A DNA stretch of 64,000 nt from Macrolepiota albuminosa. Lineage: Eukaryota; Basidiomycota; Agaricomycetes; Agaricales; Agaricaceae. Under the pieces are notes generated by a model. That model ran no database searches and was not told where the DNA came from. It saw nothing but the letters and a program-made list of their open reading frames with translations. The position numbers were made by a program, and so were the translations under genes. How positions within the stretch are numbered: the stretch's first letter is position 1; every line of letters begins with the position of its first letter. This document shows, in pieces, positions 22,047 to 64,000 of the stretch. The stretch covers positions 310,001 to 374,000 of the forward strand of contig JAMWFC010000131.1 in the NCBI GenBank assembly GCA_027475525.1, written 5' to 3'.

Positions 22047-22799
22047 TGTCACGACCCCTCCCCACCGGGCACACCCCGGGACACCCCCGGAACACCATCC
22101 GGGACCCTCCCTCCGACCCCACAGGACACACCCTGCCATCACGACCGCTGACACCGCCATCATGCGCATCAAGGACCACCATCAGCCGCCATCAGCCCCA
22201 ATCAACGATCGGTTCACATGACTCGTTCCCGGCCATCACACATCACGCATCATGACTCCCCCCACGTCAATTGATCACGCACCCCACACGCGCGATCCCA
22301 GTATACAGTCCCTGCCCGCTACTAAATGACCCCCGGAACCCATCACAGACACCCCGGAATCCCGAGACCCGGTCCCGTAGTACTTATAGTGTAGTTCCTT
22401 GTTGTATTCGCTAGTCTTGATATTACATACACTGTTACTTTGCATTTCTCGGATTGTTGCGTGCCCTCTATTTGACTGGTACGCATTGACTGGCACGCTT
22501 GACTGGCACGCTTGGATATTCGCGTGCTCTAAGACTGGTACGCACTTCACGACTTTAACTTACTAACTTGGTCTCGTCTTAGAACCTCCGGTTCACGACT
22601 CGACCCCCACCCGAACTCCCTCATCACCCACCACCCAAAACCCCCGGACTAAGTCCCCTCTCCCGGGATTTCCCTGTCCACATCTTGAACCCCGGAGTCC
22701 TAGCCCCGGAGTTCCAGACACCTGAGTATCCGTGGGTCAAGTCCGCATTGTAAGGGCGATTGCTTTCCTGGAAAGCCCCCAACTCAGCGGAACCTGACA
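22047..22799 (+). repeat. 5' LTR of element C
   Basis: 753 bp, TGTCACGACC...GAACCTGACA. It carries several TGACTGGTACGC or TGACTGGCACGC motifs (22475-22540), a TATA-like TTATAG at 22384-22389 and the presumed transcript start block AGTCTTGATATTA at 22413-22425. Confidence 0.93.
22384..22425 (+). promoter_or_regulatory. Putative LTR core promoter and transcript 5' end of element C
   Basis: TTATAG (22384-22389) lies about 28 bases before AGTCTTGATATTA (22413-22425), the distance expected from TATA box to start site. The block is complementary to the primer site at 22800-22812, which suggests that transcription begins at or just before 22413. Confidence 0.55.
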
Positions 22800-25733: not shown

Positions 25734-25779
25734 ACCTTTGAAGGGGAGGACGCCACCTACGAGTATTCGGAAAATGACC

Positions 25780-26290: not shown

Positions 26291-26419
26291 AACTCCCCTT
26301 CGACATCCCCTACTCCCCTGACCCTACCCCGAAGGACGGGCCCCCACCACCCCCCGGACTCCAGTCTCGTTCATCCCGATCCTTCGTCATCAATGCCAGG
26401 TTGGACAGCGCCCCATGAC

Positions 26420-28702: not shown

Positions 28703-28938
28703 TGTAACAAAGTTACAGAGATTGTGAGAGCTTAGGTTCACACTGCACAGAATCAGACCAGTCCGGTCTATTGACTATGTAGTATCAACACAAAAATAAG
28801 CTGCTTTGTAAGCAGCTGGTAAACTAATTTATATAATAATGTAAATTAATATTATATTATAATAAATATAATATAATAGTATCTACTGTAAGGTAAGTAA
28901 AGCTATGTGGACAACGCCACATAGCGGACTACGCTACA
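28703..28938 (-). mobile_element. Solo LTR of element A family inside element C
   Basis: 236 bp whose reverse complement starts TGTAGCG and ends TGTTACA, with the GCTATGTGG-type inverted repeat and the AGACCGGACTGGTCT block of the A LTRs. Flanked by CTGAA at 28698-28702 and 28939-28943. The empty site is seen in D near 41010, where the coding sequence is uninterrupted. Confidence 0.93.
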
Positions 28939-30481: not shown

Positions 30482-30846
30482 TGGGCGTAACCCCCGCCTC
30501 TGGGCTCAGTAGGGATTCAACTCCCATGTATACTTTCTGCTTTCCCTTTCTAGATCTTACTCTCTTTTAGTACTTTCCCATAGTAGTGTCCCGGATTCTG
30601 GGCAAGGTACTCTTTCTCATTTCCCTGCCGCCTTACTTACACCATTTTGAGTACGATGACCGAGTATATACATTTTGCTACAAGTACAATATTTCACAAG
30701 CCTATAGACGAGCCAAGACGAGAACCAACGAAATTACCGACCCTATACATTTTGCTACAAGTACAATATTTCACAAGCCTATAGACGAGCCAAGACGAGA
30801 ACCAACGAAATTACCGACCCTCGCTCCCTCCCTCCCCGGGCCAGCC
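30482..30846 (+). other. Spacer between pol and the antisense gene of element C
   Basis: No coding sequence recognised. It contains a 77-bp tandem duplication (30667-30820). The 3' ends of pol (+) and of the antisense gene (-) converge here, so it may hold both transcript ends. Confidence 0.5.
30667..30820. repeat. 77-bp tandem duplication (spacer of C)
   Basis: Units start TATACATTTTGC at 30667 and 30744. Confidence 0.95.
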
Positions 30847-32520
30847 TCAAAACCCCTCCCCCATCCCCTCCGGATCGTGCTCCCGCAATACTTCCTCGGC
30901 CAACTGTTCCCAGGACGGGAGCGACTCACCCTCGTCCAGAACTCTCTCGAACCAGGAGCTGGGGGCGGGCACGTTCCTCCGCCGGTGTGCCGACACCACC
31001 CGCCCCAGCAGGTCAAGGCCCCGTTCTACCCCAGGAGTCGTCACCTCAGGGCGCTGCCCCTCCTGCAGCGCCGCGAGTGCCGCGGCCGCCCCGTCCAAGA
31101 GTAGGTGGTGCTCTCGGGCCCAGCCTGGAAATGTCAGTGGGGAATCGAACCCGAGGATAGGAGGACTCACTTAACGAGGCCATACAGGCCACCACCACGT
31201 CCCGGCGTAGGGCCTCCGCCAACCCCTCACCCCCTGGAAGTCCCACTCCCTGCCCGAGCCTCGCCCTCAGAGCCTCTAACTCGGCCTCCGCTTCCCCCCG
31301 GGCGACCCTAGCCTCCTCCAGGCCCTGGGCCATCGCCTCCCGACCCTCCTCCAGATCCCGCCCAGCCACCGCCTCCTCCCTCGCCCCCTCCCCGTGGCCC
31401 CCCTGCTCCGGCTCCTGCAGGGCCCCAACTTCGCCAGCCTGGAGTCCCCTGGACAGGGGGGAGAATGTTGCTGGGGACAGGCGCGGGGGTGAAACCGGAG
31501 GTGGGGTCTCCAGGGGCAAGCGCGCCCTCTTGGAGGGCCCCGGGGAAGGGCTAGGCGACGCCCGCCGCTTCCCCTTGTCTGGGCGCCCCTCAGGTTGCTC
31601 CCGCCCTGGGGCACCGGACCGGGTCACCCGGCACGTGATTAAGACCACGGGCCGGCCCCGGCCGCCCACCTGGACGAACCCCCGCCCTCCTGCCCCACCC
31701 CCAGGGGCCTTCCCCGGCGCCTCCTCCTGAACCCCCGCCGCCCCCGCGACCCAATCCCTCTCCTCCACCCCCATCCTCCGGGTAATCCCTCCCAACGGCC
31801 AACCCTGCTCCCGTGAAACGCAATATGCCCTCCAAAGGGCCGAAACGGAACATCGCTCATGATTGAGGCGACAGGCCTCACACACGGAAGTGTCGCACCA
31901 GGACAAGGCAGACGGGACCTCGAACGAGCACGTCACCAAACGACGCGCGCAGTGGAGACACTAGGACAGATTAGCTGCGGGACCAGAGGTATGAAGTCAC
32001 TTACCAGCCCGTTGCTAATACACCAGGCATGGGGAGGCAGGCCCCGGGGCCTCACCAACGCCCCCTCAAAGGCCTCCTGTGTCGCGCTGGCCCACTCAAC
32101 GCGCTGGGCCTCCGGGACCTCGGAAATGGCCCCCACCGCCATCCCGGAGCGACGGAAACGAGGGGCGACCAGCCTGGGGCGAGGAGGGGGAGGGGGACGG
32201 GGGGGATGCACGGTCATCCACGCAAAAGTGGGCGTGGGACGACTGGCACCTGAAGAACCCCTGGGACCTGCACCAGGGACAGGCTCCGGGAGCCGGCTGG
32301 GACCCGCCTCCGGGGCAGTAATGTTGTGTTGTTCTGAAAAGGGAAGGTCAGTAGCGACAAACGGGCGGCGCGGGAAGCACTCACGTTGTTGCGCAAGAGC
32401 CGCCACGCGCTCCTGGTCCAGGCGCGCTCAGTATCGCACGTCCCAGGCCTCCCGGGCCATGAGGGGCGCGACCTCATTAGTTTGGGGGGGCGTTGGGGAA
32501 TGGGTCGGCATACGCGACAT
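30847..32520 (-). CDS. Antisense spliced accessory gene of element C (paired-cysteine protein)
   Basis: Minus-strand gene between pol and the 3' LTR. Exons 32520-32385, 32333-32005, 31960-31171 and 31124-30847; introns of 51, 44 and 46 bp begin GTGAGT or GTAAGT and end CAG or TAG. Start ATG reads MSRMPTHSPTPP. Exon 2 is Pro-rich. The exon 2/3 join gives CLHCARRLVTC then VCEACRLNHERC, spacing CX2CX6C-X15-CX2CX6C, close to a fungal Zn2Cys6 cluster but with a longer loop. A basic Ser/Pro region (GKRRASPSPSPGPSKRARL, possibly nuclear-localising), a heptad-like Glu/Ala helix and a conserved C-terminal domain (REHHLLLDGAAAALAALQEG) follow. A TGA in exon 1 (DVRY*ARL) and one at the end stand for Arg codons. 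Function is unknown; a nuclear regulator of the element is an inference. Confidence 0.7.
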
Positions 32521-32649
32521 GTTTGGACTTGACAGTAAAAATTTTTTTTCGATACGTGGCGAGTCAGGTGCCGGGTCCCACGGTTGAACCCCGGTCCGAA
32601 CCACTGGCTACGCGCGCCTCGGAGGGTCTCGGCACTGAGGGGGGGGTGA
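32521..32649 (+). promoter_or_regulatory. Polypurine tract and antisense-gene leader of element C
   Basis: GAGGGGGGGGTGATG directly precedes the 3' LTR and is the plus-strand primer tract. On the other strand the same ~130 bp is the leader of the antisense gene, so its promoter must lie here or in the 3' LTR reading inward. Confidence 0.55.
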
Positions 32650-33479
32650 TGTCACGACCCCTCCCCTCCGGGCCCACCCTGGGACACCCCCGGAACACCA
32701 TCCGGGACCCTCCCTCCGACCCCACAGGACACGCCCCGCCATCACGACCACCGACACCGCCATCATGCGCATTAAGGACCGCCATCAGCCGCCATCAGCC
32801 CCAATAAATGATTGGATCACGCAACTCGTTCCCGGCCATCACACATCACGCATCACGACTCCCCCCACGTCAATTGATCGCGTGCCCCACACACGCGATC
32901 CCGGTATACAGTCTCTGCCCGCTACTCAATAACCCCCGGAACCCATCACAGACACCCCGGAATCCCGAGACCCGGTCCCGTAGTACTTATAGTGTAGTTC
33001 CTTGTTGTATTCGCTAGTCTTGATATTACATACACTGTTACTTTGCATTTCTCGGATTGTTGCGTGCCCTCTATTTGACTGGTACGCATTGACTGGCACG
33101 CTTGACTGGCATGCTTGGATATTCGCGTGCTCTAAGACTGGTACGCACTTCTTGACTGGTACGCATTGACTGGCACGCTTGACTGGCATGCTTGGATATT
33201 CGCGTGCTCTAAGACTGGTACGCACTTCACGACTTTAACTTACTAACTTGGTCTCGTCTTAGAACCTCCGGTTCACGACTCGACCCCCACCCGAACTCCC
33301 TCGTCACCCACCACCCAAAACCCCCGGACTAAGTCCCCTCTCCCGGAATTTCCCTGTCCACGTCTTGAACCCTGGAGTCCTAGCCCCGGAGTTCTAGACA
33401 CCCGAGTATCCGTGGATCAAGTCCACATTGTAAGGGCGATTGCTTTCCCGGAAAGCCCCCGACTCAGTGGAACCTGACA
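32650..33479 (+). repeat. 3' LTR of element C
   Basis: 830 bp, nearly identical to the 5' LTR apart from a 77-bp tandem duplication at 33075-33228. Without it the length is 753 bp, equal to the 5' LTR. It is followed by GATAC. Confidence 0.93.
33075..33228. repeat. 77-bp tandem duplication (3' LTR of C)
   Basis: Units start TTGACTGGTACGC at 33075 and 33152. Absent from the 5' LTR. Confidence 0.95.
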
Positions 33480-36453: not shown

Positions 36454-37318
36454 TGTCAGGTTCCGCTGAATCGGGGGCTTTCCGGGAAAGCGACACCCTT
36501 ACGATGCGGACTTGATCTACGGATACTCGGGTGCCTGGAACTCCGGGGCTAGGACTCCGGGGTTCAAGGCGAGGACAGGGGTAATCCCGGGAGAGGGGAC
36601 TAGATTCCGGGGGTTTTGGATGAGAGTGGCTGGGAATTGGAGGGGGTCGAGTCGTGAACCGGAGGTTCTAAGACGAGACCAAGTTAGTAAGTTAAGAGTC
36701 GCGAAGTGCGTACCAAAGCTTAAAGCACGCGAATACTAAGGCGTGCCAGTCGAAGCGTACCAAACAAGGCGTACCAGTCAAGCAGAGGGCACGCAATATC
36801 CAAAGTAACAGTTATGCAATATCAAGACTAGCGAATACAGCGGAGAACTACACTATAAGTACTACGGCTCGTGTCTCGGGATTCCGGGGTGTCTGGGATG
36901 AGTTCCAGGGGTCATTGAGTAGCGGCCAGGGACTGTATACTGGGATCGCGCGTGTGGGGACGCGCGATCAATTGGCGTGGAGGGAGTCGTGATGCGTGAT
37001 GGCCGGATGCGAGCCGCGTGATCCGATCGTTGATGGCGGTGGATCCCGGGGTCCGTGATGCAGGGGTTCCGGGGAGGGCTGGCTGATGGCGATCGTTGAT
37101 GGCTGATGGCGGTCCTTGATGCGTGTGATGGCGGCGTCGGCAGCTGTGGGGCGGGGTGCGCTGTGGGAGTTGACGGAAGAGGTTCCCGGGCGGGGCTCTG
37201 TGTGATGGCGGCGTCGGCAGCTGTGGGGCGGGGTGCGCTGTGGGAGTTGACGGAAGAGGTTCCCGGGCGGGGCTCTGGGGGTGTCCCGGGGCGGTTCCGG
37301 GGGGGAGGGGTCGTGACA
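36454..37318 (-). repeat. 3' LTR of element D
   Basis: 865 bp including a 77-bp duplication at 37123-37276, or 788 bp without it. Strongly similar to the 5' LTR. Confidence 0.92.
37123..37276. repeat. 77-bp tandem duplication (3' LTR of D)
   Basis: Units start GTGTGATGGCGGC at 37123 and 37200. Absent from the 5' LTR. Confidence 0.95.
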
Positions 37319-37444
37319 TCACCCCCCCCTCAGCGCCGAGACCCTCCGAGGCGCGCGTAGCCGGAGGTTCGGGCCGGGTCCGAGCGTGGGAACCGGCGCC
37401 TACCCTGCCATGTAACGAAAAAAATTTTACCATCAAACTCAACT
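37319..37444 (-). promoter_or_regulatory. Polypurine tract and antisense-gene leader of element D
   Basis: On the minus strand TGAGGGGGGGGTGATG precedes the 3' LTR. On the plus strand the same ~125 bp leads to ATG 37445 of the antisense gene and contains an A/T run (AACGAAAAAAATTTTACC). Confidence 0.55.
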
Positions 37445-39271
37445 ATGTCGCGAACACCGACGCATTCGCCAACGCCCCCAGACACGAATGAGGTCGCGCC
37501 CCTTATGGCATGGGGAGCCTGGGACTCGCGATACCGGGCTCGCCTTGACCGGGAGCGCGTGGCGGAGCTCATCCGGCAACGTGAGTGCTTTTCGCGTCGT
37601 CCGTCTGTCTCAACTGACCTTCCCAATCCAGAACAACTCAACAATCCGATCCCGGAGGCGGGTCCTAGCCGGCAACCGGAGCCTGCCCCCGACGCGGGTC
37701 CCAGCGTCCCTTCCGAGTCCCGTCAGGGTTGTACCGCACCCACGTTTGCGCGGATGACCGTCCGCCCTCCCCGTCTCCAGCCCCCTCCCCGCCCGAGATT
37801 GCCTGCCCCTCGTTTTCGTCGCTCCCGGATGGCGATAGGGACCGTGGCAGAGGTCCCGGAGGGTCAATGTGTCGCGTGGGCGGGCGCCACGCAGGAGCTG
37901 TTCGAGGAGGCCCTGGAGAGGCCCCGGGGACTGCCTACTCACGCGTGGTGCGTGAGTAACGGACCGGTCAGGAGCTGTTCGAGGAGGCCCTGGAGAGGCC
38001 CCGGGGACTGCCTACTCACGCGTGGTGCGTGAGTAACGGACCGGTGAGTTGTGCTCTACCTATGATCCCTGTTGCTGACTTCGGTGCAGTGCTTGCACTG
38101 CGCCCGCCGGGGGGTGCTTTGCGCCTTCGAAGTTCCGAGCCCCTCGTCCCGCCGGGACACGGCCGTGTGCGAGGCTTGCCGCCTCAATCACAAGCGCTGT
38201 TCCGTGTCGGCGCTGTGGAGGGCGTGTTCTGTCGCCCAGGAGCAGGGATGGCCATTGGCGGGGATCACCCGGAGGATGGGTGTGGAGGAGAGGGATTGGG
38301 TGGCGGAGCCGGTAGGCAAGGGGGGGGTGCCCGCGGCGTCCGCGGAAGTGTCCAGCGGGGGTTCGGGGGGTCAGGGGGCCAGGTCGGGGGGCCAGGGGGC
38401 CATCCGGGTGGGGGGCCGGGGCCGGCCCGTGGTCCTCATCACCTGTCGGGTGACCTGGTCCGGCGCCCAGGGGCGGGAGGGGCGGGGGCGCCCTGATAAG
38501 GGCAAGCAGCGGGCGTCGCCTAGCCCCTCCCCGGGGCCTTCCAAGAGGGCGCGCTTGCCTTCTGGGACCCCTTTCCCAGTTTCCCCCCCGCGTCTTTCCC
38601 CGGCAGCGTTCTCGCCTTTGTCGGGGCAGCCCTTGGGGGCGGAGGTGGTGGCCCCTCACGAGCGCCCGGGGGAGTTTGAAGAGGGTGGGGAGGAGGCCGT
38701 CGCGCGTCGGGAGTCCGAGGCGGGCCGGGAGACGCTTTGATTGTTGAAGGAGGCTCGGGTAGCTCGGGAGGAGGTGGAGGCGGAGCTGGAGGCGTTGAGG
38801 GCGAGGTTGGGGCAGGGGGTGGGGATCCCGGAGCGGACCCCCTCGGGACAGGAGCTGGTGGAGGGTCTTCGTCGCGATGTGGTGGTCTCGCGTATGGTGT
38901 CCTTGAGTGAGTCCACTGCTGCTCGCCTACTTTCTTCTGCTGACGTCTTCAGGCTGGGCCCGGGAGCACCGTTTGCTCCTGGACAGGGCTGCCGCGGCCC
39001 TTGCTGCGCTACAGGAGGGGCAACGCCCGGAGCTGACGACCCCCGGGGTGGAGCGTGGCCTCGACCTCCTGGGGCGGCTGGTGGTTGCTCACCGGCGAAG
39101 GAACGTGCCCGCCCCGGGCTCCTGGTTCGAACACGTGTTGGACGAGGGCGAGCCTCTTCCATCGTGGGAAGCGCTGGCCAAGGAGGTCTGGCGGGAGCGC
39201 GGTCCGGAGGGGGTAGGGGAGGGCTTCCGGGGCTGGCCGCAGGGAGGGGGTAGTGAGGGGGGCTCCGGTTA
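37445..39271 (+). CDS. Antisense spliced accessory gene of element D (paired-cysteine protein)
   Basis: Plus-strand gene inside the minus-strand element. Exons 37445-37580, 37632-38043, 38090-38906, 38953-39271; introns of 51, 46 and 46 bp, each GTGAGT...CAG with a CTGAC branch-like motif. Start ATG follows CATCAAACTCAACT, which is also conserved in E. Exon 1 reads MSRTPTHSPTPPDTNEVAPLM. The exon 2/3 join gives CLHCARRGVLC and VCEACRLNHKRC (CX2CX6C-X15-CX2CX6C). Next come a WALR-type helix, GGRGRPVVLITCRVTWSG, a basic Ser/Pro stretch, a coiled-coil-like EEVEAELEALRARLGQG and the C-terminal RLLLDRAAAALAALQEGQ domain. One 77-bp duplication (37892-38045) and a TGA at 38738 (RETL*LLKEA) interrupt it. 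Function is unknown; it resembles no Gag or Pol part. Confidence 0.72.
37892..38045. repeat. 77-bp tandem duplication (antisense gene of D)
   Basis: Units start CAGGAGCTGTTCG at 37892 and 37969, ending at the exon 2 donor. Single in C. Confidence 0.95.
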
Positions 39272-39272
39272 G

Positions 39273-39546
39273 GGTGTGGTGTTTTTGGTGCTTTCTTGTC
39301 GTCTTCGTACGCCCGTTTCGCTAACCTGTGTAATAATGTATTTGTAGAAAATGTACATACTTGGTTTCACGTAGTAATAGTGGTGTAAGTAAAGTGGCGG
39401 GGTAGCTGGGAAGAGTACCTTGCCCATAATCCGGGGCGCTACTGTAAAAAAGGAAAACTAGAAGGGATTAAGATCTAGAAAGGAAAAACAGAAAGTATAT
39501 GCGGGAGTTGAATCCCTGATGAGTCCAGAGGCAGGGGTTACACCCA
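39273..39546. other. Spacer between pol and the antisense gene of element D
   Basis: No coding sequence seen. Pol (-) and the antisense gene (+) converge here, as in C. It holds AT-rich stretches suitable for transcript ends (TAATAATGTATTTGTAG near 39330) but no canonical signal is claimed. Confidence 0.45.
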
Positions 39547-40164
39547 CTACTGCCGTCTGTGAGTCCTGCGCCCCGGAGGGTCGTTTCCCGGGTGCTGTTG
39601 TTGGAAGTCCCGGAGTTTGTCGAGGGCGCCTTTGAGGTTTTTGCGTGGTTCCCAAGTGTCGTCTTCCAGGCCGTATCCCTTCCACCGTACGAGGAAGTGG
39701 GGTCGTCCACGAATGTTCCGGGAGTCGAGGATGTCTTCGACCTCGTAGTGGTACTCGTCCTCGACCTCGACCGGGGGAGGGGGTTCGGGTCGTCGTCCAG
39801 GGAAGGGATCCGGGGGGTGTCGCTCCAGGAGGCGGACGTGGAAAACCGGGTGCAGTCCTTTTAGTCCCGGGGGAAGTTCGATCTTGTAGGCGTGGGATGA
39901 GACCTTCTTCAATATTTTGAACGGGCCGAGACGCTTGTGATCGAGTTTTGGGGAGGGCCGGTGGGTGCAGAGGTGTCGTCGATCTAACCATACCTTTGTC
40001 CCGGGGGTCCAGTCGGGGGTGTCTTCCCGTTTCCGGTCGGCGTGTTTCACGTAGGCCCGGTTCGCGGTGTCGATCTCTTCCCGGAGAAACTCGTGAAGAG
40101 ACTGGAGATCCCGGGCGACCTCGTGGGCGGCGTGTGACGGGATGTCCCGGAGCGAGAGCGTCAG
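39547..40164 (-). CDS. Integrase tail and chromodomain of element D
   Basis: Same frame as the RT-integrase frame, separated only by one [52 protein letters not shown] (GPF motif), [17 protein letters not shown], then the chromodomain [15 protein letters not shown] ... [17 protein letters not shown] (39760-39620), ending in a basic RRTHRRQ and TAG. Confidence 0.88.
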
Positions 40165-42363
40165 TCAAGGATGGTACCCCTTGTTGGCAAAGAAGGGCGA
40201 TACCCCGGTGGCAGAGTGCAGCGTGTTGTTGTAGATGAACTCGGCCAGGGGGAGCTCGGCGCGCCAGTCATCCTGCAAGTAGTTGACGTACAGCCAGAGG
40301 TACTGCTCGAGGGACTGGTTGACCCTCTTGGTTTGGCCGTCGGTTTTGGGGTGGTAGGCGGTAGAGAGGTTAGTCTTTACTTCAAGTGCCTTACACAGGG
40401 AAGTCCAAAACTTGGACACGAAGAGGGGGCCACGGTCGGAGACGATGTCGTCTGGGAGTCCATGTTTGGCAAAGACGTGCTCGAGAAACAGTCGGGCAAA
40501 GTCCGGGGCAGTGTCCGTGGTGTGGCAGGGTAGGAAGATGCCCTGTTTGGTTAGCCTGCACACAACGACGAGAATGGCATCGAACCCTTCAGACTCCGGG
40601 AGTTCGACGATGTGGTCCAGGGATATGGAGGACCAGGGGCGTCGTCCGACTGGCAGGGGTTTCAGGAGTCCGTATGGTCGGTGTCGGGGGACCTTGGCCC
40701 GGAGGCAGGGTTCACATGATCGAATGTAGCGGGTCACGTCCTTCTTCAACCCTGGCCAAAAGTAAGTCCGGGAGATCAGCTGGAGGGTCTTACGTATCCC
40801 AGGGTGTCCCCGGAGCTTGTGATCGTGGTGTTGACGGAGGACATCATAGCGGAGTCGGGCGTGATCCGGGACGTAGATGCGGCCGTCCCGGAGGAGGAGT
40901 TTTTCGTCGGGGGACAAGGAGAAGGCAGGGTCCCGGTCGGTCTCGTTGGAAGAGTTTCGGGGGTCGTGATCGGTGAAGTACTTGTCTCGGGGAGCATGGC
41001 GGATCTGGTTCAGGGTTCCTTCGTCGTTTAAGATCAGTATGGCATTCAGATGTTCAGGAGGGATCACCACGCAATGATTGAACGCATTGCGTTCCGCCTC
41101 GAATGACTTCTTGGGGTAGACGTCCGGTCGGCGGGTAAGGGCATCGGGCTTAGCTCCCAGTCGTCCCGGGCGGTACTGGATCGTGAAATCGTACTCCGAG
41201 AGGATCTCGGACCACCGGGCCTGCCGTCGACTCAGTTGCTTGGTAGTGGTGAAGTACTGCAGGTTGTTATGATCTGAGTAGACCTGAATCCGGTGCCGGG
41301 CTCCCTCGAGGTAGGCTCGCCATTGTTTGAAGGCTTCGACGATGGCGAGGAGCTCCTTGTCGTAGATGTCGTAATTGAGCTCGGCGTCGATCATGGACCG
41401 GGTGTAGAAGGCGACTGGCCGGGGCTCCCCGCCATCAGGTTCCATCTGCAAGAGAATCCCGGCGATGGCGTAGTCGGAGGCGTCGCATTCTAGGATAATT
41501 GGGAGGGCCGGGTCGTAGTGCCAGAGGACGGGGGCAGCTGTGAAAGCCTCCTTGAGCAGGTTAAAGACGCTCTGGCACTTACTGTCCCAGTTCCAGGCGA
41601 CGTCCTTGCGCGTGAGCCGGTTGAGAGGTTTTGTGATACCGGAGTAGTTATCTATGAACCTCCGGTAGAAATTAGCGAAACCCAGGAAAGATTGTACTTC
41701 CTTGACGTTCCGGGGTTGCGGCCAGTTGACGATGGCCTCGACCTTGTGGGGATCCATGCGGACGCCATTCGGGGATACTATGACGCCAAGATACTCAACC
41801 TCTTCGGTATGGAATGAACACTTCTCGGGCTTGGCGTGGAGGTTGTGTTCCCGGAGGCGTTCGAGGACCTGCCGGACGTGCTTCTGGTGATCCTCCGGCG
41901 AGTCGGAGTAGATGAGTATGTCGTCCAGGTAGACTATCACGAAGACGTCGCTCATGTCGTGGAAGATGTCGTTCATGAAGTATTGGAACGTGGCGGGGGA
42001 GTTAGTCATTCCGAAAGGCATTACAAGGTACTCAAACAGACCATACCGCGTGTGGAACGCGGTTTTCCACTCATGTCCCGGGGCGATGCGGACGTTGTTG
42101 TAACCGGAGCGGAGGTCAATCTTTGTATAAACCTTGGCACTGCGGAGTCGATCGACCAGATCGCCAATGAGTGGGAGCGGGTAGTGGTTCTTCTTGGTGA
42201 TCTTATTGAGTCCCCGGTAGTCGACACAGAGTCGGAGCGAGCCGTCCTTCTTCTTGGTGAATAGAACCGGGGCTCCGGCGGCGGAGGCGGAGGGTCGGAT
42301 GAATCCCTTACCGAGCATTTCGTCGAGGTAGTCCTTGAGAGCCCGGAGTTCGACCTCCGACAT
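40165..42363 (-). CDS. RT, RNase H and integrase of element D
   Basis: One open frame of 732 residues from MSEVELRALKDYLDE. RT: VLFTKKKDGSLRLCVDYRGLNK (residues 33-54) and catalytic YLDD at 145-148. RNase H: LECDASDYAIAGIL, ELNYDIYDKELLAI, VYSDHNNLQYF. Integrase: HHDHKLRGHPGIRKTL ... CEPCLRAK, Asp in SLDHIVELPES and Asp in IVSDRGPLFVS. The third catalytic residue is lost: GQTKRVNQ where C and the family have GQTERVNQ (a CG to CA change). It ends at a TGA in place of Arg, after which the same frame continues to 39547. It copies and inserts element DNA; this copy should be unable to integrate by itself. Confidence 0.92.
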   Translation of the reverse strand: MSEVELRALKDYLDEMLGKGFIRPSASAAGAPVLFTKKKDGSLRLCVDYRGLNKITKKNHYPLPLIGDLVDRLRSAKVYTKIDLRSGYNNVRIAPGHEWKTAFHTRYGLFEYLVMPFGMTNSPATFQYFMNDIFHDMSDVFVIVYLDDILIYSDSPEDHQKHVRQVLERLREHNLHAKPEKCSFHTEEVEYLGVIVSPNGVRMDPHKVEAIVNWPQPRNVKEVQSFLGFANFYRRFIDNYSGITKPLNRLTRKDVAWNWDSKCQSVFNLLKEAFTAAPVLWHYDPALPIILECDASDYAIAGILLQMEPDGGEPRPVAFYTRSMIDAELNYDIYDKELLAIVEAFKQWRAYLEGARHRIQVYSDHNNLQYFTTTKQLSRRQARWSEILSEYDFTIQYRPGRLGAKPDALTRRPDVYPKKSFEAERNAFNHCVVIPPEHLNAILILNDEGTLNQIRHAPRDKYFTDHDPRNSSNETDRDPAFSLSPDEKLLLRDGRIYVPDHARLRYDVLRQHHDHKLRGHPGIRKTLQLISRTYFWPGLKKDVTRYIRSCEPCLRAKVPRHRPYGLLKPLPVGRRPWSSISLDHIVELPESEGFDAILVVVCRLTKQGIFLPCHTTDTAPDFARLFLEHVFAKHGLPDDIVSDRGPLFVSKFWTSLCKALEVKTNLSTAYHPKTDGQTKRVNQSLEQYLWLYVNYLQDDWRAELPLAEFIYNNTLHSATGVSPFFANKGYHP

Positions 42364-42514
42364 GTTGTAGACCTTGCCAAAAGGGGGGGTGGCTCCTTCC
42401 TCGAGGTCGATGGTGTGATCATAGGGGCGGTGAGGGGCATGTTGTAGACCTTGCCAAAAGGGGGGGTGGCTCCTTCCTCGAGGTCGATGGTGTGATCATA
42501 GGGGCGGTGAGGGG
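42361..42514. repeat. 77-bp tandem duplication (RT start of D)
   Basis: Units start CATGTTGTAGACC at 42361 and 42438. Single in C. Confidence 0.95.
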
Positions 42515-42959
42515 AATCTCCTTGGCGTCTCCTTCAGAGAATACGTCAGCGAACTCGTGATACTCCGGGGGAACTACTTCTCGGAGGATTTGCTCCTCGG
42601 TTTTCTGTTCCGGGGGAATAGCGTCCCCTCGTAGGTGTTCTTCCGGGAGAGAAGGCGAGGTGTGCAGCTGAAACGTGGGAGTTCCATCCCTCATGAGGCG
42701 GGCAAAGGGGGCGGCCCCAATGATCCTAATGTTGAGTGCGCCCGGGTCGATCGGTGTTGCGGAATCATCGGCCGGAGCGGGTGTGACACGTGTCTGAGAC
42801 CGGCAGGGGTAGTTCGGCCCCTTGTACTTGTTCCGAGGAATGTTTGGGGGTCGATCGGGGGCCTTGCGGTCTCGGATGGGCGGGGGTGGTGCATGCGTGG
42901 GGGGCGCGGCAGTCGTCCCGGGGGTGTCGGGCGTCGGGTCGCTTCCTAGAGCCCGGAGG
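42364..42959 (-). pseudogene. Protease-RT linker of element D
   Basis: RDRKAPDRPPNIPRNKYKG, IIGAAPFARLMRDGTPTF, EEQILREVVPPEYHEFADVF. A 1-base deletion in a C run near 42515 and the 77-bp duplication 42361-42514 separate it from the RT frame. Counting both back puts the protease and RT frames in register. Confidence 0.75.
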
Positions 42960-43400
42960 TGCACGGCGGTCGAGGGGTGGTCTTCGGGTCCCGGGAAGGT
43001 CATGGTGAGCGTCCTCCAGTCGATGTCGGGGTTCGTGTCGCGCAGCCAGGGTAGTCCCAGCACCATCGGGGTCGATTCGTGAAGTCGCGTGACCAGGAAG
43101 TCGGAAGTGAACTCGTAGTTGTTGTCCAGGGTCACGCGTCCCGAGTGAGACCTTTGGATGGGGCCGGAGGAGGAGGGGGTGCCGTCGAGGCGTTGCAGGC
43201 GGAGGGGCTGGTCGAGGGAGTCGTGGGGGAGGTCGAGAGGCCGGAGGAGGAGGGGGTGCCGTCGAGGCGTTGCAGGCGGAGGGGCTGGTCGAGGGAGTCG
43301 TGGGGGAGGTCGAGAGCGCCGCTGATGAATACTCCGGTGGCTCCGCTGTCGATGAGGGCCGAGACTGGTCCTGGGGCGCCGTCCAGCCTGGCATTGATGA
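42960..43400 (-). pseudogene. Second retropepsin domain of element D
   Basis: SALIDSGATGVFISGALDL (about 43360-43310), then FTSDFLVTRLHESTPMVLGLPWLRD with TNPDIDW (about 43110-43015). A 77-bp duplication at 43162-43315 falls inside and shifts the frame. Confidence 0.8.
43162..43315. repeat. 77-bp tandem duplication (second protease of D)
   Basis: Units start GGCCGGAGGAGG at 43162 and 43239. Single in C. Confidence 0.95.
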
Positions 43401-43529
43401 TGAAGGATCGGGAGGAACGGGACTGGAGCCCGGGGGGTGGTGGAGGCCCGTCCTTCGGGGCAGGGTTGGGGGAGTGGGGGATGTCGAAGGGGAGTTGCTG
43501 GTCGTCGGGGGTCGGGTCCTGGGTCAGGC

Positions 43530-43990
43530 GAAGGGTGAGGTGTCGCCAATCGATGTGGGGGTTAGTGTCCCGGAGCCACGGGAGTCCTAGGACCAGGGGT
43601 GCGGAAGGGTGGAGTTTGGTTATCAACATCCGGAGAGTGTGGGTCTGTCCGTTGGCGAAGGTAACGGGCATACGCACAAAATGAGTGATGTCCCCCGCCG
43701 TTGAAGAGGCAGAGTCGTACCGGGACCGGGAGTCGCTGGGCAGGTTCCGGGGCGAGGGTAGACCATGCTTCGTCGATGAAGTTGTCGGTGGCGCCGCTGT
43801 CGACGAGGGTGTTGAGGGGAGTTCCGGAGGGGGTGAGGCGGGTTTTGAGGAGGAGGGAGTGCGAAGAGTGGGAGGGTAGGTAAGCCGTGAGGGTGTCCTG
43901 TATGAGCGTCGTAGAGCAAAGATGTGAGACCGGGGCGGAGAAGACGTCGGGGTCGATTCCGCGATTTAGGGCGTCTTCCGGGTCTAAATC
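43530..43990 (-). pseudogene. First retropepsin domain of element D
   Basis: It begins in the -1 frame at the gag stop (DLDPEDALNRGID). DSGATDNFIDEAWS lies at about 43807-43765, and LVLGLPWLRDTNPHIDW at about 43600-43550. Same arrangement as C, so the tandem protease is a family trait and not a one-copy accident. Confidence 0.8.
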
Positions 43991-45218
43991 GCCGGGTCAT
44001 TTTCCGAATACTCGTAGGTGGCGTCCTCCCCTTCGAAGGTCCAGGTGGCACGTCCCATGACCTGTCGTTTGGGGCACTCGGAGATGAAATGATCTTTCTC
44101 ACCACAGAGTATGCAGACACCCTCCCTTCTCCGTCGTTCCTGCACATCCGTCGGGACTTCGATCCAGGGTCGTCCCTTCTTTTGAAGCCGGTTGGCTCGG
44201 AGGGCCTCTTCGTCCCGCTCGTCGTCGAAGTCAAAGTCTTCGGGGTCTTCCGGGGGTTCCTCGGGGCTTGGCACGTCGCCCGGGTCGTGGGCGGCCACGG
44301 CGGCGTTAAGTTGGGCCTGGGGGCGGGCGCCGCTGCCGGAGTTAGCATTGGGCGGGCCGCGACTCACCGGGGGTCGGCCGCCAGGGAACACGGGGGGACC
44401 GGGGTTTTGACCTTGGGGGTTGGGAGCTTTGCCAGAGGGCCAAGGGGGTCCTCCTCTAGGGTTCCAGGGGGGTCGGGAATTCGAATACTCGCTGCGGTCT
44501 TCCCAGTAGCGTTGGTCGATCTGCATGACGAGGGCCTTGTATCTGTCGTAGGAGGGTTGTTTCGGGGCGAGTCGGAGGACGTCCTTGATGCGTTGTGGCA
44601 GGGCGCGGCGGAGGGCGTACCGGAGGGCGCTGTAGTTCCAACCTGTTTCGTAAGCTTCCTTCTCAAAACGTACGATAAAGGTGGTGAAACGTTCTTCCGA
44701 GCGCATCCGGAGATTGAAGAGGTTGTCCTCGGCCTCGGCCACGGTGTCGTATATCCCGAATTTCCCGGAGAACTCGTCGACGAAGGCTTGCCAGCGAGCG
44801 AGTGCTGGGTTGTTGGGGTCGAACTGGATGAGGGCCGTGTAGTGGTCGAAGGCGATCCCCTGGAGGTACGACGCGGCAAAGGCCACCCGGGAGCTGTCAA
44901 CCTGAAACGTGAGCGGCTTTGCCTGGAATGTATTGAGACACTGAGTGAGGAAGGTACGCCATTTTCAGGGGTCCCGGCCCGTGAAAGCGTCGGGCTTTTG
45001 GATGTCCAGTCGTCCTTCGCGGGCGAGGGCGTCGCGAGCGTCGTCCGGTCCGGCAGCGTTACGGGGAGGGGGGCCAGCATTGTAATAATAGTAGTAATGA
45101 TTACCCCCTCCTCCTTGAGGAGGGAAAGCACCAAGGGCGGGACCCCACCCGCCGGGAGGTCCTCCTCCGGGTGGCTCACCTGGGGGTCCACGCCCGGGGG
45201 GTCCGTTGTCCCAAGGGG

Positions 45219-45372
45219 GTTCGTTCCTGCCAGGAGGGGGCCCGGGTCTCCACGCAGGGAGTGGCGGAGGTGGAGGGCCTGGGGGTCGTCCTCGAGTTCG
45301 TTCCTGCCAGGAGGGGGCCCGGGTCTCCACGCAGGGAGTGGCGGAGGTGGAGGGCCTGGGGGTCGTCCTCGA
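45219..45372. repeat. 77-bp tandem duplication (gag linker of D, first)
   Basis: Units start GTTCGTTCCTGCC at 45219 and 45296. Confidence 0.95.
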
Positions 45373-45403
45373 AGTTCAGCTGGGGGTGGCGGAGGCGGTC
45401 GGG

Positions 45404-45557
45404 GAGGGTTCGGCGGTGTCGGGTCGGGCGGAGGGGGGTTAGGTGCTGGGTCGGGTGCCGGGTTGCGCGGGGGACGTTCAGAGGGTTCGGCGGTGTTGGG
45501 TCGGGCGGAGGGGGGTTAGGTGCTGGGTCGGGTGCCGGGTTGCGCGGGGGACGTTCA
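45404..45557. repeat. 77-bp tandem duplication (gag linker of D, second)
   Basis: Period 77 from 45404 and 45481, with one C/T difference between units. Confidence 0.9.
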
Positions 45558-46872
45558 ATCCGGGAGGGTTGGGCTTGCATCGGGGGTCGCGGGGGGTTTT
45601 GTAGGTCGAAGTGGGGTGGCGGGTCGCGGCGGAAGTTGCGTTCCGGAGGGACCGGGGCTGACGTAGGGGGCGGTACCGGGACGGGCGCGGGACGTGGTTC
45701 GTTGTTGCCACGCGTAAGCTCGTCGATGTAGCACAGCGTGTCGTCCGTGCTAGGGGTGTCCGCGCGGGGTCTGCCAGGGTTCGCTGGGGCCGGAGGTCGG
45801 GCGTTGTCTGTTCGCGGAAGGGGTTCCAGGGGTCTTTGGGGTTGTCTCCAGGTCTCGAAGGTACTAGGGACGGAGTTAGCCCTGCGGCGAGTTGACAAGC
45901 CTACCGTGCGGGCCGCGGGCTGATCGAAGAGGCCTCCAGCCAGGTTGAGGGACCGTAATATGGCTGAGGCGTTCTGCCGTTCTTCCCGTTGTCGTTGCTC
46001 CGGAGTGGGGACCGTGGGGGCTGCCGGGGCTGCTGGGACCGGTTCCGGGGGTTCCCGTCGAATGTGAATCGAGCGACCTGGGTCCGCGGGGTCGTTGATG
46101 GGCCGAGGGGAGGGGGACGCGTGGACTTCGTCGAGCAGTTGCTGTAATTCTTCCCGGAGGATCGTATTGCGCCTATACTTTACCATGGTTTGCTCCGGGA
46201 GTTCTCCTCGCGTGAGGCGATCCCCGAATTCGACCAGGCAGTGAGCCCATTCCTCCGGAGTGCCTTCGAAGTCGTCGTGTCCAAATTCCACGAGCAGCGT
46301 CCTGGTCCGTTGCGCGAAGTCCTCTGGTGAGATCCTGAGGGAGCGGAGTACCTCGTCCCGTTGCCGTTCATACTCCTCGAGGCGTCGTCGTCCCATTGGC
46401 GAGGGAGGGGTTCGAGCGGGTGGGGCGGCGGCCGGGTAATGACGAAGGGGGTAGTCGGGGTAGGGGGGTCCTCGGGGTTCTCGGGGTTGGGGGACGGGGC
46501 GCTGGTAACCGTAGTAGGGGGTGGGTGCAAAGGGGCCCTCGCTGGGGGGAATCGGGCGAGGTCCACTGGGTACAGGTGGGGTCTCCGGCAGGCCCCCGGG
46601 GATGCTCCGGTACGAGGGGACCTCCACGGGTCGCGCCATGGCTAAATTGGGCGGAGGGGCCCAGCTGGCTGAGGGCCCCAGGTCGTAGAGGGACGGGTCG
46701 GGGGCCCAGTGGCGGTGGAGGTATGGAGGTTCGTACGGGAGAGGTGGGTAGACGGGGCGGGGGGTCTGCGCGGAGTAGTGGTCGGGTACCGGGCGTCCGT
46801 AAGGGTCGGTCTGGTACCCCGTGGGGTAGTAGGTGTGAGTATACGTAGCCATCAAGAACGGTGTAAGGAAAG

Positions 46873-46885
46873 AGTCTTGATATTA
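46873..46885 (-). promoter_or_regulatory. Self-priming site of element D
   Basis: On the minus strand TAATATCAAGACT follows the 5' LTR directly and pairs with the LTR block at 47250-47261 over 12 bases, as in C. Confidence 0.75.
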
Positions 46886-47763
46886 TGTCAGGTTCCGCTG
46901 AATCGGGGGCTTTCCAGGAAAGCGACGCCCTTACGATGCGGACTTGATCTACAGATACTCGGGTGCCTGGAACTCCGGGGCTAGGACTCCGGGGTTCAAG
47001 GCGAGGACAGGGGTAATCCCGGGAGAGGGGACTAGATTCCGGGGGTTTTGGATGAGAGTGGCTGGGAATTGGAGGGGGTCGAGTCGTGAACCGGAGGTTC
47101 TAAGACGAGACCAAGTTAGTAAGTTAAGAGTCGCGAAGTGCATACCAAAGCTTAGAGCACGCGAATACTAAGGCGTGCCAGTCGAAGCGTACCAAACAAG
47201 GCGTACCAGTCAAGCAGAGGGCACGCAATATCCAAAGTAACAGTTATGCAATATCAAGACTAGCGAATACAGCGGAGAACTACACTATAAGTACTACGGC
47301 TCGTGTCTCGGGATTCCGGGGTGTCTGGGATGAGTTCCAGGGGTCATTGAGTAGCGGCCAGGGACTGTATACCGGGATCGCGCGTGTGGGGACGCGCGAT
47401 CAATTGGCACGGAGGGAGTCGTGATGCGTGGGGCGTGATGCGTGATGGCCGGATGCGAGCCGCGTGATCCGCGCGATCAATTGGCACGGAGGGAGTCGTG
47501 ATGCGTGGGGCGTGATGCGTGATGGCCGGATGCGAGCCGCGTGATCCAATCGTTGATGGCGGTGGATCCCGGGGTCCGTGATGCAGGGGTCCCGGGGGGG
47601 CTGGCTGATGGCGATCGTTGATGGCTGATGGCGGTCCTTGATGCATGTGATGGCGGCGTCGGCAGCTGTGGGGCGGGGTGCGCTGTGGGAGTTGACGGAA
47701 GAGGTTCCCGGGCGGGGCTCTGGGGGTGTCCCGGGGCGGTTCCGGGGGGGAGGGGTCGTGACA
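46886..47763 (-). repeat. 5' LTR of element D
   Basis: 878 bp, including a 77-bp tandem duplication at 47393-47546 and a 13-bp expansion (GTGGGGCGTGATGC) not seen in the 3' LTR. The self-priming donor AATATCAAGACT (+ strand) is at 47250-47261. Confidence 0.92.
47393..47546. repeat. 77-bp tandem duplication (5' LTR of D)
   Basis: Units start CGCGCGATCAATT at 47393 and 47470. Absent from the 3' LTR. Confidence 0.95.
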
Positions 47764-60575: not shown

Positions 60576-60716
60576 ATGTCACGCACACCGACTCATTCCC
60601 CAATGCCTCCTCCTACTAACAAAGTCACACTCCTGATTGTGTGAGAGGCCTGGGATGCTAGATACTAGTGCTAGCTTGACCATGAGCGCATGGTGGTGCT
60701 CACTCAGCAACATGAG
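60576..60716 (+). pseudogene. Antisense accessory gene of E, exon 1 (decayed)
   Basis: ATG 60576 after the conserved ACCATCAAACTCAACT leader. It reads MSRTPTHSPMPPPTNK like C and D, then stops at TGA/TAG codons where Arg stood. The donor site has changed from GTGAGT to ATGAGT. Confidence 0.7.
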
Positions 60717-60742
60717 TGCACCCATGCTATTTTGCTTGGCAT

Positions 60743-61365
60743 TGTTAGGTTCTGCTGATGATGGGGGCTTCCAATGGCAAGCAGGTCCTTACTAGGCAGA
60801 CTTGAAGTCTACAGAGTATTTCCAGGCAATGGAGGGGCGAGTTCCAGAGTTTTGGGTGAGGCACGAGGGTGCTCTGGAGAGTACACAAAGTGCTGGAGTT
60901 TGAGGAAGGGGTGGAGCAGGATTCCAGGCTAAGTCTGGAATATGGCAAAGGAGGGAACAGAGCCGGTTAAGGCAAAGAGACAATCAGGAGTGATCAGGGA
61001 AAGAGACTAAGACTGTGAGACTGAGGCTGAGACTGGAAGATGGAGAGAAGATTGAAGAGAGACTTAGTGGGCTAGGAGACTTGAGAGAGTAAGAAAATAG
61101 ATTGGGCAAGTAATATGAGATAGACAGAGGAGTATAGAGGCAGAAGTTATAGCAACATCAAGACTACCATGATGGGCTACTGGCTACAAGTTAAATATCT
61201 GCATTGGATAAGCTCCAGATCAACCAAGTGAGGTCTGGGGTTGCATCCCATATGGTTAGTCCTGTGCAGTGTTGTCATGATTGGATAAGCTCCAGATCAA
61301 CCAAGTGAGGTCTGGGGTTGCATCCCATATGGTTAGTCCTGTGCAGTGTTGTCATGACCCCCCGA
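60743..61365 (-). repeat. LTR of a sister family within intron 1 of E
   Basis: Starts TGTTAGGTTCTGCTGA and contains ACATCAAGACTA, so it is related to but distinct from the C/D LTR. It includes the 61203-61356 duplication and ends near GTTGTCATGA. No target duplication was found. Confidence 0.5.
61203..61356. repeat. 77-bp tandem duplication (LTR relic in E)
   Basis: Units start ATTGGATAAGCTCC at 61203 and 61280. Confidence 0.95.
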
Positions 61366-62103
61366 TGTCACGACCCCCCCAGGACACCCCTGGAACCCCA
61401 TCCAGAACCCTCTCTCCGACCCCACAAATGCACCCTGCCATCACGACTACCAACACCACCATCAAAAGCCGCCATCACCCGGCACCCCAGCAACCCACAT
61501 CACAGACCCTGGGATCACCGCCATCAAACCATGATCAATGATCGGATCACACTACCTGCTTCTGGGCCATCACACATCACACATCATGACTCCCTCCGTG
61601 CCCCACATGTGCAATCCCAGTATACAGTTCCCCCCCACTACTCAATGCCTCCCAGAACTTATCCCAGACACCCTGGAATCCCGGAGACCCAGACCCAGCC
61701 CCATAGTACTTATAGTGTAGTTCCCCATTGTATTTGCTAGTCTTGATATTAACTTGAATTGTTGTGTGCCCTTTGCTTGATTGGTACATGCTGACTGGCA
61801 CACTTTGACTGGCATGCTTGAATAACCGCATGCTCTAAGTTTGGTATGCACTTTGCGACTTACACTTTATTAACCCAGTCTCGTCTTAGAACCCCCAGTT
61901 CTCGACTCGACCCCTACCCGGCTCACAGCCTCTAAACCTAAAACCTCCGGATCAAGTCCCCTTCCCCAGGAGAACCCCCTGTCTGCATCTTGAACCCCAG
62001 AGTACTAGCTCTAGAGTTCCAGACATCCAAGTATCCATAGATCAAGTCCGCCTCGTAAGGGCGTTGCTTTCCTGGAAAGCCCCCAACTCAGCAGAACCTG
62101 ACA
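61366..62103 (+). repeat. C/D-type solo LTR within intron 1 of E
   Basis: 738 bp, TGTCACGACCCC...GAACCTGACA, less CpG-depleted than the surrounding E sequence and so younger. With 60743-61365 it forms a second facing LTR pair like 16303-17548. Confidence 0.75.
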
Positions 62104-62354
62104 AGTGTATTGCTCAGGTGTGAGGCCTGTGCAGCGTATAGTCCAGGTATGGGTGTGGTGTTTCCTGGGCTGATTGGGATGGTGTCAGGAAGTTTAACAA
62201 TGGGGCAGTGGTGTCAGGGGCTGAGGGGTCTTAGCACATGGGGAATCAGTGTGGGTAGGGTGTCCAGAGTGGGCTCAGAGCTCTGGGTGAGGTGTCTGGT
62301 TGGGTTGGGTAGGGTGCCGGTCATGACAGGCATGATTGACTTCTTTTTTTCAGA

Positions 62355-64000
62355 ACAACAAAGTGCTCCTGCCCTAGAGGCAGGTCCCAGTTGCCTCTTG
62401 GAGCCTGCCCCCAAGGCAGGCCTGAGTGGCCTTCTGGAGCTGGTCCCTGAACCTGTTCCTGAGGCAGGTTCCAGCTGTCCTGCACCCACCTTTGCACAGA
62501 TGACTGTCCACCCTCCTCAAACCCACCCTGCACCCCAACCTCACCTTGTTGCCCCTCATTTTTGATGATACAGGATGGCCCTGGGGACCATCTTGGTGGT
62601 CTCAGACAATCTGCGCATTCTGTGGGCAGATGTGATGCAGGAAATGTTTGAGCAGGCCCTGAAGAGGCCCTGGAGGCTGCCCACCTACAAATGGTGTATC
62701 AGCAATGGACCAGTAAGTGATCTTGTACCTCTGGGTTGCTGCTGATGTCAGCCCCAGTGCATGCATTGTGTCTGCTGGGTGGTACCATGTCTTTTTGAGG
62801 CCCTGGGCCCTTTGTCCCAGAAGAATTTGTCTGTATACAAAGTGTGCTGCCTCAACCATGAGCAGTATTCCGTGTCAGCCTTGTGGAAGACGCACTGCAT
62901 ATTATGGGAGCAGGAGTGGCCACTGGAGGGAATGACCTGGAGAATGGGGATGGAGGAGAGGGATTGGGTTGTGGAGCTGGAGGGGGGGCATTTGGAGGAG
63001 TCCAGGGAGTCCCAAACTGGAGGTGCATTGATCAGTGGGGTCCCAGCAGCAGTGCCTGTGGGGGGATCCAGGGGAGGCTTGGAGGGAGAGGGAGTTCTTA
63101 GGGTGGAGGATCAGGGTCAGCCCATGGTCCTGGTCATGTGCCAGGCAACTCAGGCTGGGACAAGCAGTGGGGCTTGTGATGGGCATCCAGACAAGAGGAA
63201 GCAGCAGGCATCACCCAGCCCTTCTCCCAGGCCTTCAAAAAGGGCATGCCTACCCCCAGCCTCCCTTCTGTGCCTATCTCCAGCAGTGTTTTCCCTGTTG
63301 TCAGGATGATCACTGGGTGTTGATGTGGAGGCCTTACAGGAGTGGCTGCAGAGGGCTGATTGTGAGAGAGGGGAGCTTGCTGACCAGCACCAGGTAATGG
63401 CAGGGCACCTCCAAGAGGTCCAGGCATCCTTGGCATGCAGCAAGGAGGGGGCAAGGCAGGAGGTGGCAGCCTGGAGGTGGGTGGAGGAGAACAGGAGGGC
63501 AGTACTCCAGGAGTTGGAGGCAGCATGGGTTGCCTGGGGGGTGCTGGAGGAAGAGCAGGATGCACTGTGGGTCTGGTTGGAGCAGGGGACAGGACATCTG
63601 GAATAGGCCCCCCCAAGTCAGGGGTTACTGGCAGCCTTGTTGCAGGACATTGTGGTTGCCTGGATGCCTTGTACTGACATCCTCAAGTTGGGCCTGAGAG
63701 CACTGACTGCTCCTGAACAGGGTGGCTGCAGCGCTCATGTTGCTGCAGGAAGGGCAGCATTCCAAGTTGACAATCCCTGGGATGGAACAGGGCCTCAACT
63801 TGCTAGGGAGGGTGGTGGCAGCACATCAGCAGAGGAATGTCCCTGCCCCAGGGATGTGGTTCAAGTGAGTATTGGACAAGGGCAAGCTGCTCCTGTCCTG
63901 GGATCAATTGGTGGAAAAAGCGTCATGAGAGCATGCCCCAGGAGAGGTGGAGGAGGAGGGGCCTCAGGGCTGGCTGGCTGGACCTGGGGAGCAGGAGAGA
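62355..64000 (+). pseudogene. Antisense accessory gene of E, exons 2-4 (decayed)
   Basis: The acceptor TTTTTTTCAG ends at 62354; exon 2 carries APTFAQMTVHPP and the KWCISNGP end. A GTAAGT donor (62713) and CCCCAG acceptor (about 62757) bound a 45-bp intron 2. Exon 3 starts CMHCVCWVVPC, so two cysteines of the first cluster remain while Arg codons became Cys and Trp. Next come GQPMVLVMCQATQAG, a basic Ser/Pro stretch and, after intron 3 near 63680, the C-terminal domain. Gene structure survives better than sequence. Confidence 0.75.

Follow-up and report, generated by a model that had tools for sequence, protein, structure and literature searches.

Boty-like elements of Botrytis cinerea reportedly carry an antisense gene, brtn, a description attributed to Zhao et al. 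in 2011. In the fungal element Boty this gene is placed between pol and the 3' LTR (PMC7264820 and the accessible part of PMC8365987), and antisense additional open reading frames have been described in plant Ty3/gypsy elements, namely gene23 of maize Grande and those of rice RIRE2, Silene Retand and PvRetro13 (PMC7264820). The function of antisense accessory genes of LTR retrotransposons is not known (PMC7264820). According to the accessible part of PMC3185765, APH-2 of HTLV-2 lacks the bZIP consensus and yet inhibits LTR activation.

We analyzed a gene that reads against Ty3/gypsy elements in a 64,000-nucleotide stretch of the Macrolepiota albuminosa genome (the window, meaning the whole of this stretch). 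A preliminary description had suggested that a spliced antisense gene of this kind was new to fungal chromoviruses. This stands in part: a fungal antisense gene was already known in Boty (brtn, PMC7264820), but the multi-intron, cysteine-cluster form in a chromovirus may be new. Among the titles and abstract openings searched, with subscription papers mostly outside reach, no fungal chromovirus was found to carry a cysteine-cluster gene that is antisense and spliced. As far as this search shows, what is new is the occurrence in a chromovirus of a cysteine-cluster gene with three introns, together with the weight of the evidence for selection and an island of diversity between copies.

The antisense gene and its host elements

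Elements C (plus strand, 22047-33479) and D (minus strand, 36454-47763) are both complete Ty3/gypsy insertions, and the matching target-site duplications, GATAC for C and GTTGT for D, indicate that the two ends of each insertion belong together. In both, the antisense gene sits between pol and the 3' LTR on the strand opposite to the element (Table 1). LTRs, a primer-binding site, a polypurine tract and a 5-bp target-site duplication, as expected of a chromovirus, are all present. Reverse transcriptase, RNase H and integrase follow one another in this order in the pol of D, where the integrase zinc-binding domain scores above its cut-off and the rve core below it (28.3 versus 32.6 bits). A chromodomain (PF00385, E 3.7e-15) was found at the C terminus of the integrase in the pol end of a related copy, L031, in agreement with the earlier assignment to the chromoviruses, and a Tf2-1-like SH3 domain lies alongside the chromodomain in the pol end of a related copy; the window's open reading frame at 39458-40168 gave no domain match in the chromodomain check.

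The 13 nucleotides following the 5' LTR of C (22800-22812) are complementary to 13 nucleotides within the LTR (22413), and the corresponding complementarity in D spans 12 nucleotides. We take this to be self-priming of the Tf1 type, which would also mark the start of the RNA. On this complementarity, the chromovirus family that carries the antisense gene is probably self-primed.

In D, four exons are separated by introns of 51, 46 and 46 bp, all GT...AG, and the antisense gene proposed in the preliminary description is confirmed as real; likewise, the motif predicted from the joined exons, CX2CX6C-X15-CX2CX6C, is found at the start of exon 3. The ATG lies 126 nt outside the LTR. The D copy is interrupted by an in-frame TGA in exon 3 (38738-38740) and by an exact 77-bp tandem duplication that breaks the frame in exon 2. 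The gene had also been claimed for C and E; both carry it, but the second intron of C is 44 bp long (51, 44 and 46 bp for the three introns). The C copy contains two in-frame TGA codons, at codon 31 and near the end. The E copy is the same gene in CpG-decayed form, with the first donor changed from GT to AT, about 1.6 kb of other sequence in intron 1, partly an LTR of the C/D type, and the cysteine region at 62758-62985. With C, D and E all damaged, no intact gene is present in the window.

Several other features of the window were noted. Element E is strongly depleted in CpG, as expected of methylation decay. The LTR in its insert is solo-like, with a blastn match at 61597-62104 and a start near 61366 by reading. 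The pol of C contains an insertion of about 237 bp (28702-28938) between the RNase H and integrase frames, a short nested repeat with 81-83% relatedness to 825-979 and 12254-12476. A 27-bp tandem repeat at 54769-55029, for which six overlapping 81-nt copies are listed, lies in open frames (54262-55735, plus strand) and looks like a repeated 9-residue unit.

Fourteen exact tandem duplications were found in the window, all with a period of 77, and the same rule yielded none with any other period between 20 and 399. Because unrelated sequences share this one length, the duplications are probably k-mer joins of the assembly, and since all 14 have the same period, a real duplication breaking the D gene was rejected in favor of a join. 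Such joins artificially lengthen LTRs (in C, 830 versus 753 bp) and break frames. The C gene lies wholly between two of them; in D, exons 3-4 and pol are contained in one stretch as far as the join at 42361, so that the linkage of gene and pol in D involves no join.

Table 1. Positions of the antisense-gene copies, their host elements and the 77-bp duplications in the window.
Feature	Positions	Strand	Remarks
C 5' LTR	22047..22799	+	753 bp; preceded by TSD GATAC; complement of PBS at 22413
C antisense gene, exon 4	30847..31124	-	Ends at in-frame TGA short of usual end
C antisense gene, exon 3	31171..31960	-	Cysteine motif
C antisense gene, exon 2	32005..32333	-	
C antisense gene, exon 1	32385..32520	-	ATG 32520; in-frame TGA at codon 31
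C 3' LTR	32650..33479	+	830 bp including 77-bp join; TSD GATAC behind
D 3' LTR	36454..37318	-	865 bp; TSD GTTGT
D polypurine tract and leader, 3' LTR to ATG	37319..37444	+	Low divergence between copies; candidate antisense promoter/5' UTR
D antisense gene, exon 1	37445..37580	+	ATG 37445, ATG in 32/33 aligned copies
D antisense gene, exon 2	37632..38043	+	Most of 77-bp duplicated join inside
D exact 77-bp tandem duplication in exon 2	37892..38045	.	Read as assembly join
D antisense gene, exon 3	38090..38906	+	Cysteine motif, AT-hook-like RGRP, basic clusters, charged helix-like stretch
D antisense gene, exon 4, to stop	38953..39272	+	Conserved; model helical, low confidence
D pol: RT, RNase H, integrase	40165..42363	-	RVT_1 2.3e-43, RT_RNaseH 3.9e-35, Integrase_H2C2 2.8e-22
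D 5' LTR	46886..47763	-	878 bp; TSD GTTGT
E decayed antisense-gene copy	60576..64000	+	Broken in intron 1 (about 60740-62350; insert region 60712-62350); runs off window
77-bp duplications	23137, 25579, 28027, 29830, 30667, 33075, 37123		
77-bp duplications, continued	37892, 42361, 43162, 45219, 47393, 59362, 61203		

Selection on the four-exon frame and its occurrence in the genome

Judged by comparison of its copies, the antisense frame is a selected protein gene. Across 33 aligned copies, GT is kept at 29, 33 and 31 donors and AG at 32, 32 and 31 acceptors of introns 1-3, and all six canonical splice dinucleotides are retained in 35 of 46 copies of the same genome. A branch-like site, CTRAY, occurs in each intron of 19 low-decay copies, counted without a chance control. 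Because the introns are antisense to the genomic RNA and are not spliced from the sense RNA, the gene is kept whole through each transposition, in support of the preliminary description; only an antisense transcript could give rise to the protein.

Differences at codon positions 1, 2 and 3 amounted to 0.178, 0.170 and 0.334, with 0.373 in introns, and outside CpG-type contexts to 0.138, 0.125 and 0.256, with 0.320 in introns. NG86 dN/dS had a median of 0.25 over 15 pairs from six copies and 0.26 over 527 pairs, and the pooled value for ten copies, some of them not intact, was 0.23. A ratio near 1 had been named as evidence against the gene; the range found, 0.23-0.26, indicates purifying selection. 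The lowest windows (0.09-0.15) cover the N terminus, the cysteine stretch and parts of exon 4, and the highest (0.5) the start of the charged stretch and a glycine-rich stretch. In 13 copies compared with L031, 85 of 99 exon indels shorter than 60 nt were multiples of three, versus 14 of 139 in introns and 3' UTR.

By a loose rule, 10 of 46 copies are open from end to end; two of these read beyond the aligned stop, leaving eight with 520-548 residues. Among 19 copies, the gene frame is clearly the most open in exon 2 (3 versus at least 15 stops) and exon 3 (17 versus at least 38). In exon 1 the sense frame is nearly open too (3 stops versus 1 in the gene frame), and in exon 4 one sense-strand frame has 3 stops versus 12 in the gene frame.

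The 100.1-Mb assembly (129 contigs) is fungal, as shown by 37 matches to Fungal_trans, a domain that had no match in 14 control genomes. It was searched with three queries. The cysteine-region query gave at least 264 matches, with the best 150 of 1,179 candidates scored and C itself not among the 150 rows listed; the best 150 of 3,807 candidates were retained for the integrase and the best 150 of 779 for exon 4. Among the best 150 of the 3,807 integrase candidates, 47 had a cysteine-region match listed less than 6 kb away, 68 an exon-4 match and 86 either. Among the matches listed, the gene lay on the strand opposite to the integrase in all 47 cysteine-region pairs and all 68 exon-4 pairs, at 1.54-2.15 kb for the cysteine region in 46 of 47 pairs and at 0.87-1.19 kb for exon 4 in 67 of 68. 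Conversely, an integrase was listed near 47 of 125 merged cysteine-region loci and 68 of 150 exon-4 rows, again among the matches listed.

Fourteen integrase loci from the best 150 of 3,807 candidates were read directly: six chosen because no cysteine-region match was listed for them and eight picked randomly among the other 142 rows, and these eight, as it turned out, had no listed cysteine-region match either. The gene was present in all 14, damaged in L035, which lacks part of exons 2-3, and in L040, which lacks the start. Its absence from other copies of the family, which the preliminary description would have counted against it, was thus not encountered in these loci, which are top-scoring integrase rows and not the whole family. 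Since loci without a listed match carry the gene, absence from the list does not mean absence of the gene. LTR sequence aligned beside the gene in 36 of 38 copies.

An island of divergence within the elements

Similarity between C and D falls from 85-98% in gag-pol (mostly 92-98%) through about 83-90% in the LTRs to 68-81% in the gene, and their dS is 0.85 in the gene, 0.14 in the integrase and 0.20 in the reverse transcriptase. Among ten copies, six of which had been chosen for having no listed match, a choice favoring divergence, the mean difference outside the gene was 0.077-0.109 in the LTR, 0.093 in the leader and 0.052 at the pol end; inside, exons differed by 0.17-0.26, the 3' UTR by 0.345 and introns by 0.39-0.57. 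Transversions in these copies ranged over 0.069-0.239 in the gene versus 0.008-0.031 outside. Eight copies drawn at random were therefore read as well. Over all eight, LTR (0.217 and 0.264), leader (0.242) and exons (0.219-0.288) were similarly divergent and only the pol end was low (0.086), which is due to L040, unrelated to the others before exon 3 (identity to L031 0.39-0.48). The seven random copies without L040 gave 0.115 for the LTR, 0.119 for the leader and 0.081 for the pol end, versus 0.156-0.546 inside, with transversions of 0.042-0.295 inside versus 0.011-0.032 outside. One edge of the island lies close to the start codon and the other shortly beyond the pol stop, and exon 1 is its least raised part. 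CpG decay alone was rejected as an explanation of the island because transversions are raised too.

Pairwise distances agree within the gene (r 0.68 for exons 1-2 versus 3, 0.81 for 3 versus 4 and 0.42 for 1-2 versus 4). Between gene and pol end they are uncorrelated (r 0.02-0.10, not significant, 25 copies), and between gene and LTR the correlation is weak (r 0.12-0.31, 36 copies), reaching p 0.02 only for exons 1-2. Agreement within the gene and not with pol points to a reassorting cassette whose lineages are older than the backbone. Some genes are mosaics relative to L031: L044 is 97% identical in exon 2 and 74% in exon 4, and L015 and L022 are about 93% and then 77% identical. By their pattern of identity, these mosaics arose by recombination within the gene.

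Old gene lineages are in excess, which suggests that variety is selected for, as might happen if copies restrain others that carry a like gene, and the higher variation of the gene than of neighboring parts suggests that copies control themselves or compete through it. A recent sweep or gene conversion may instead have made LTR and pol uniform and left older variation standing in the gene, with no selection for its variety. We consider this plausible at somewhat less than an even chance: the absence of correlation between gene and pol-end distances fits separate histories of backbone and gene, but the edges of the island are sharper than a chance sweep would give, and introns and 3' UTR diverge even more than exons. 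Backbone sweep and selection for variety both fit the data; the edges of the island favor selection for variety.

A more specific version of selection for variety is distinctly doubtful, namely that the gene is a self-recognition cassette, whose old lineages would persist through rare-type advantage, each of them chiefly restraining copies whose gene is similar, while recombination homogenizes LTR and pol. Like genes would perhaps pair through the fast-changing charged stretch. If true, such self-recognition would amount to a system of immunity groups among retrotransposon copies in one genome, with a logic like that of phage repressor immunity.

Candidate role of the protein and known systems

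The cysteine motif reads CLHC-X6-C-X15-CEAC-X6-C. All six cysteines are present in 22 of 23 aligned rows, and the decayed E lacks two. Translations of other copies contain RGRP, which we label AT-hook-like, and two stretches, KGKRR and KRAR, which we regard as basic clusters. The Zn(II)2Cys6 spacing is CX2CX6CX5-12CX2CX6-8C, and with a central loop of X15 the gene departs from it. Pfam Zn_clus (PF00172) was the commonest match, in 18 of 23 rows at E up to 10, although the best value, 0.0095, was below the cut-off and the first row scored 16.2 bits versus a cut-off of 21; the 62 Zn_clus places in the genome are all more than 2.5 kb away from any listed gene copy. On all three counts, the label "zinc-cluster-like" of the preliminary description is weak. 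Fungal Zn(II)2Cys6 proteins of the Gal4 type share the two CX2CX6C halves with this gene, which has a loop of 15 residues and scores below the family cut-off. Conserved CGG pairs in LTR and leader, considered as Zn2Cys6 sites, were set aside, as the one conserved place was uninformative.

Heptad periodicity in the charged stretch was not significant (p 0.064), and the predicted models were poor (pLDDT 52.7 and 57.3), with no fold that backs DNA binding. The spliced C protein with X at its stops (7,990 candidates scored) and region 100-228, each used as a query against 5.8 billion proteins, gave one match, P0001. P0001 reads through the introns, and it was rejected as an independent relative because its cysteine region is identical to that of L029, a copy in the genome studied here. 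Exon 4 of L031 had no match among the 5.8 billion proteins, the gene had none in collections of viral and prokaryote contigs (viral_contigs and genome_contigs, which are not fungal sequence), and searches of the PDB, and of Pfam with the whole protein, gave nothing useful.

We propose, with about an even chance of being right, that the antisense gene is an accessory gene of this chromovirus family encoding a putative nuclear regulator of the element's own transcription or copy number. Antisense transcription would start from a promoter in U3 of the 3' LTR, in the leader of about 130 nt beside the ATG, or in both; U3 adjoins leader and gene and would fire both ways. The transcript, once spliced, would yield a nuclear protein of about 520-550 residues that may bind DNA or chromatin through the cysteine cluster, the RGRP motif and the basic clusters, may pair through a charged coiled coil, and would regulate transcription or copy number of the element, as HBZ does in HTLV-1. 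One observation speaks against a protein that selects its DNA target by gene type: the cysteine region and U3 would then be expected to co-vary, but the former belongs to the more constrained stretches and the latter differs rather little from copy to copy. A nuclear regulator is the best guess by analogy with HBZ (accessible part of PMC3185765) and Grande gene23 (PMC7264820).

Other roles are less probable. The protein might serve the transposition cycle directly, in nuclear import, target choice or integration and not in transcription, as suggested by the basic clusters, by the conservation of the N-terminal, cysteine and exon-4 parts, and by the naming of such roles for plant aORF-3R proteins (PMC7264820). 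However, the chromodomain integrase already offers targeting, and a factor shared in trans would need no island of diversity, which makes this rather unlikely. Its introns and four exons also resemble a cellular gene, and it could be a host gene captured as cargo, recently or kept by benefit to the host, with no role in the element; this is improbable given its presence in all 14 integrase loci read, the LTR sequence beside it in nearly all copies aligned and the distance of the genomic Zn_clus places from listed copies. No lone host paralogue was noticed either, in searches so saturated with copies that one could be hidden. It is more improbable still that the antisense RNA itself acts, through double-stranded RNA, small RNAs or transcriptional interference, with the protein incidental. 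Antisense RNAs of retroelements may feed silencing (PMC7264820), but a dN/dS of about 0.25, indels in threes and the retention of splice sites and six cysteines point to selection on the protein. The probability of chance open frames in GC-rich DNA, or of an assembly artefact, is close to nil: although the window copies are interrupted, the assembly contains 77-bp joins and several frames are open in GC-rich DNA, most of all in exon 4, the data on splice sites, indels, codon positions and linkage refute this reading.

Because one genome offers many copies, both open and decayed, along with introns that mark the strand and measurable selection, the function of the putative regulator is directly testable, and the divergence island hints at conflict between copies. 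The locus also carries a warning: a spliced gene model like this one, met in a fungal genome, may belong to a transposon and not to the host.

Self-primed chromoviruses of the Tf1 type resemble the elements described here in the chromodomain, the Tf2-1-like SH3 domain and an LTR segment complementary to the primer-binding site. We know of no antisense gene in Tf1. HBZ of HTLV-1 and APH-2 of HTLV-2 are spliced antisense genes started from the 3' LTR side and encoding nuclear regulatory proteins, as far as the accessible part of PMC3185765 describes them; in the gene analyzed here, the splice signals are conserved. HBZ differs in belonging to a retrovirus of people, in its protein and in a start codon inside the LTR, whereas here the ATG lies outside and the protein has paired cysteines. 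Closer in position are the plant antisense open reading frames reviewed in PMC7264820, among which Grande gene23 is equipped with a promoter of its own and gives a nuclear product. Compared by description, the gene has the position and strand of an aORF-3R, antisense between pol and the 3' LTR, and, like the plant frames, it is present in most copies and conserved, as seen in the loci read and in dN/dS; neither a multi-intron antisense gene nor a cysteine cluster or diversity island is described in the review. Boty brtn, again compared by description, shares with the gene both its setting in a fungal LTR retrotransposon and its antisense position between pol and the 3' LTR.
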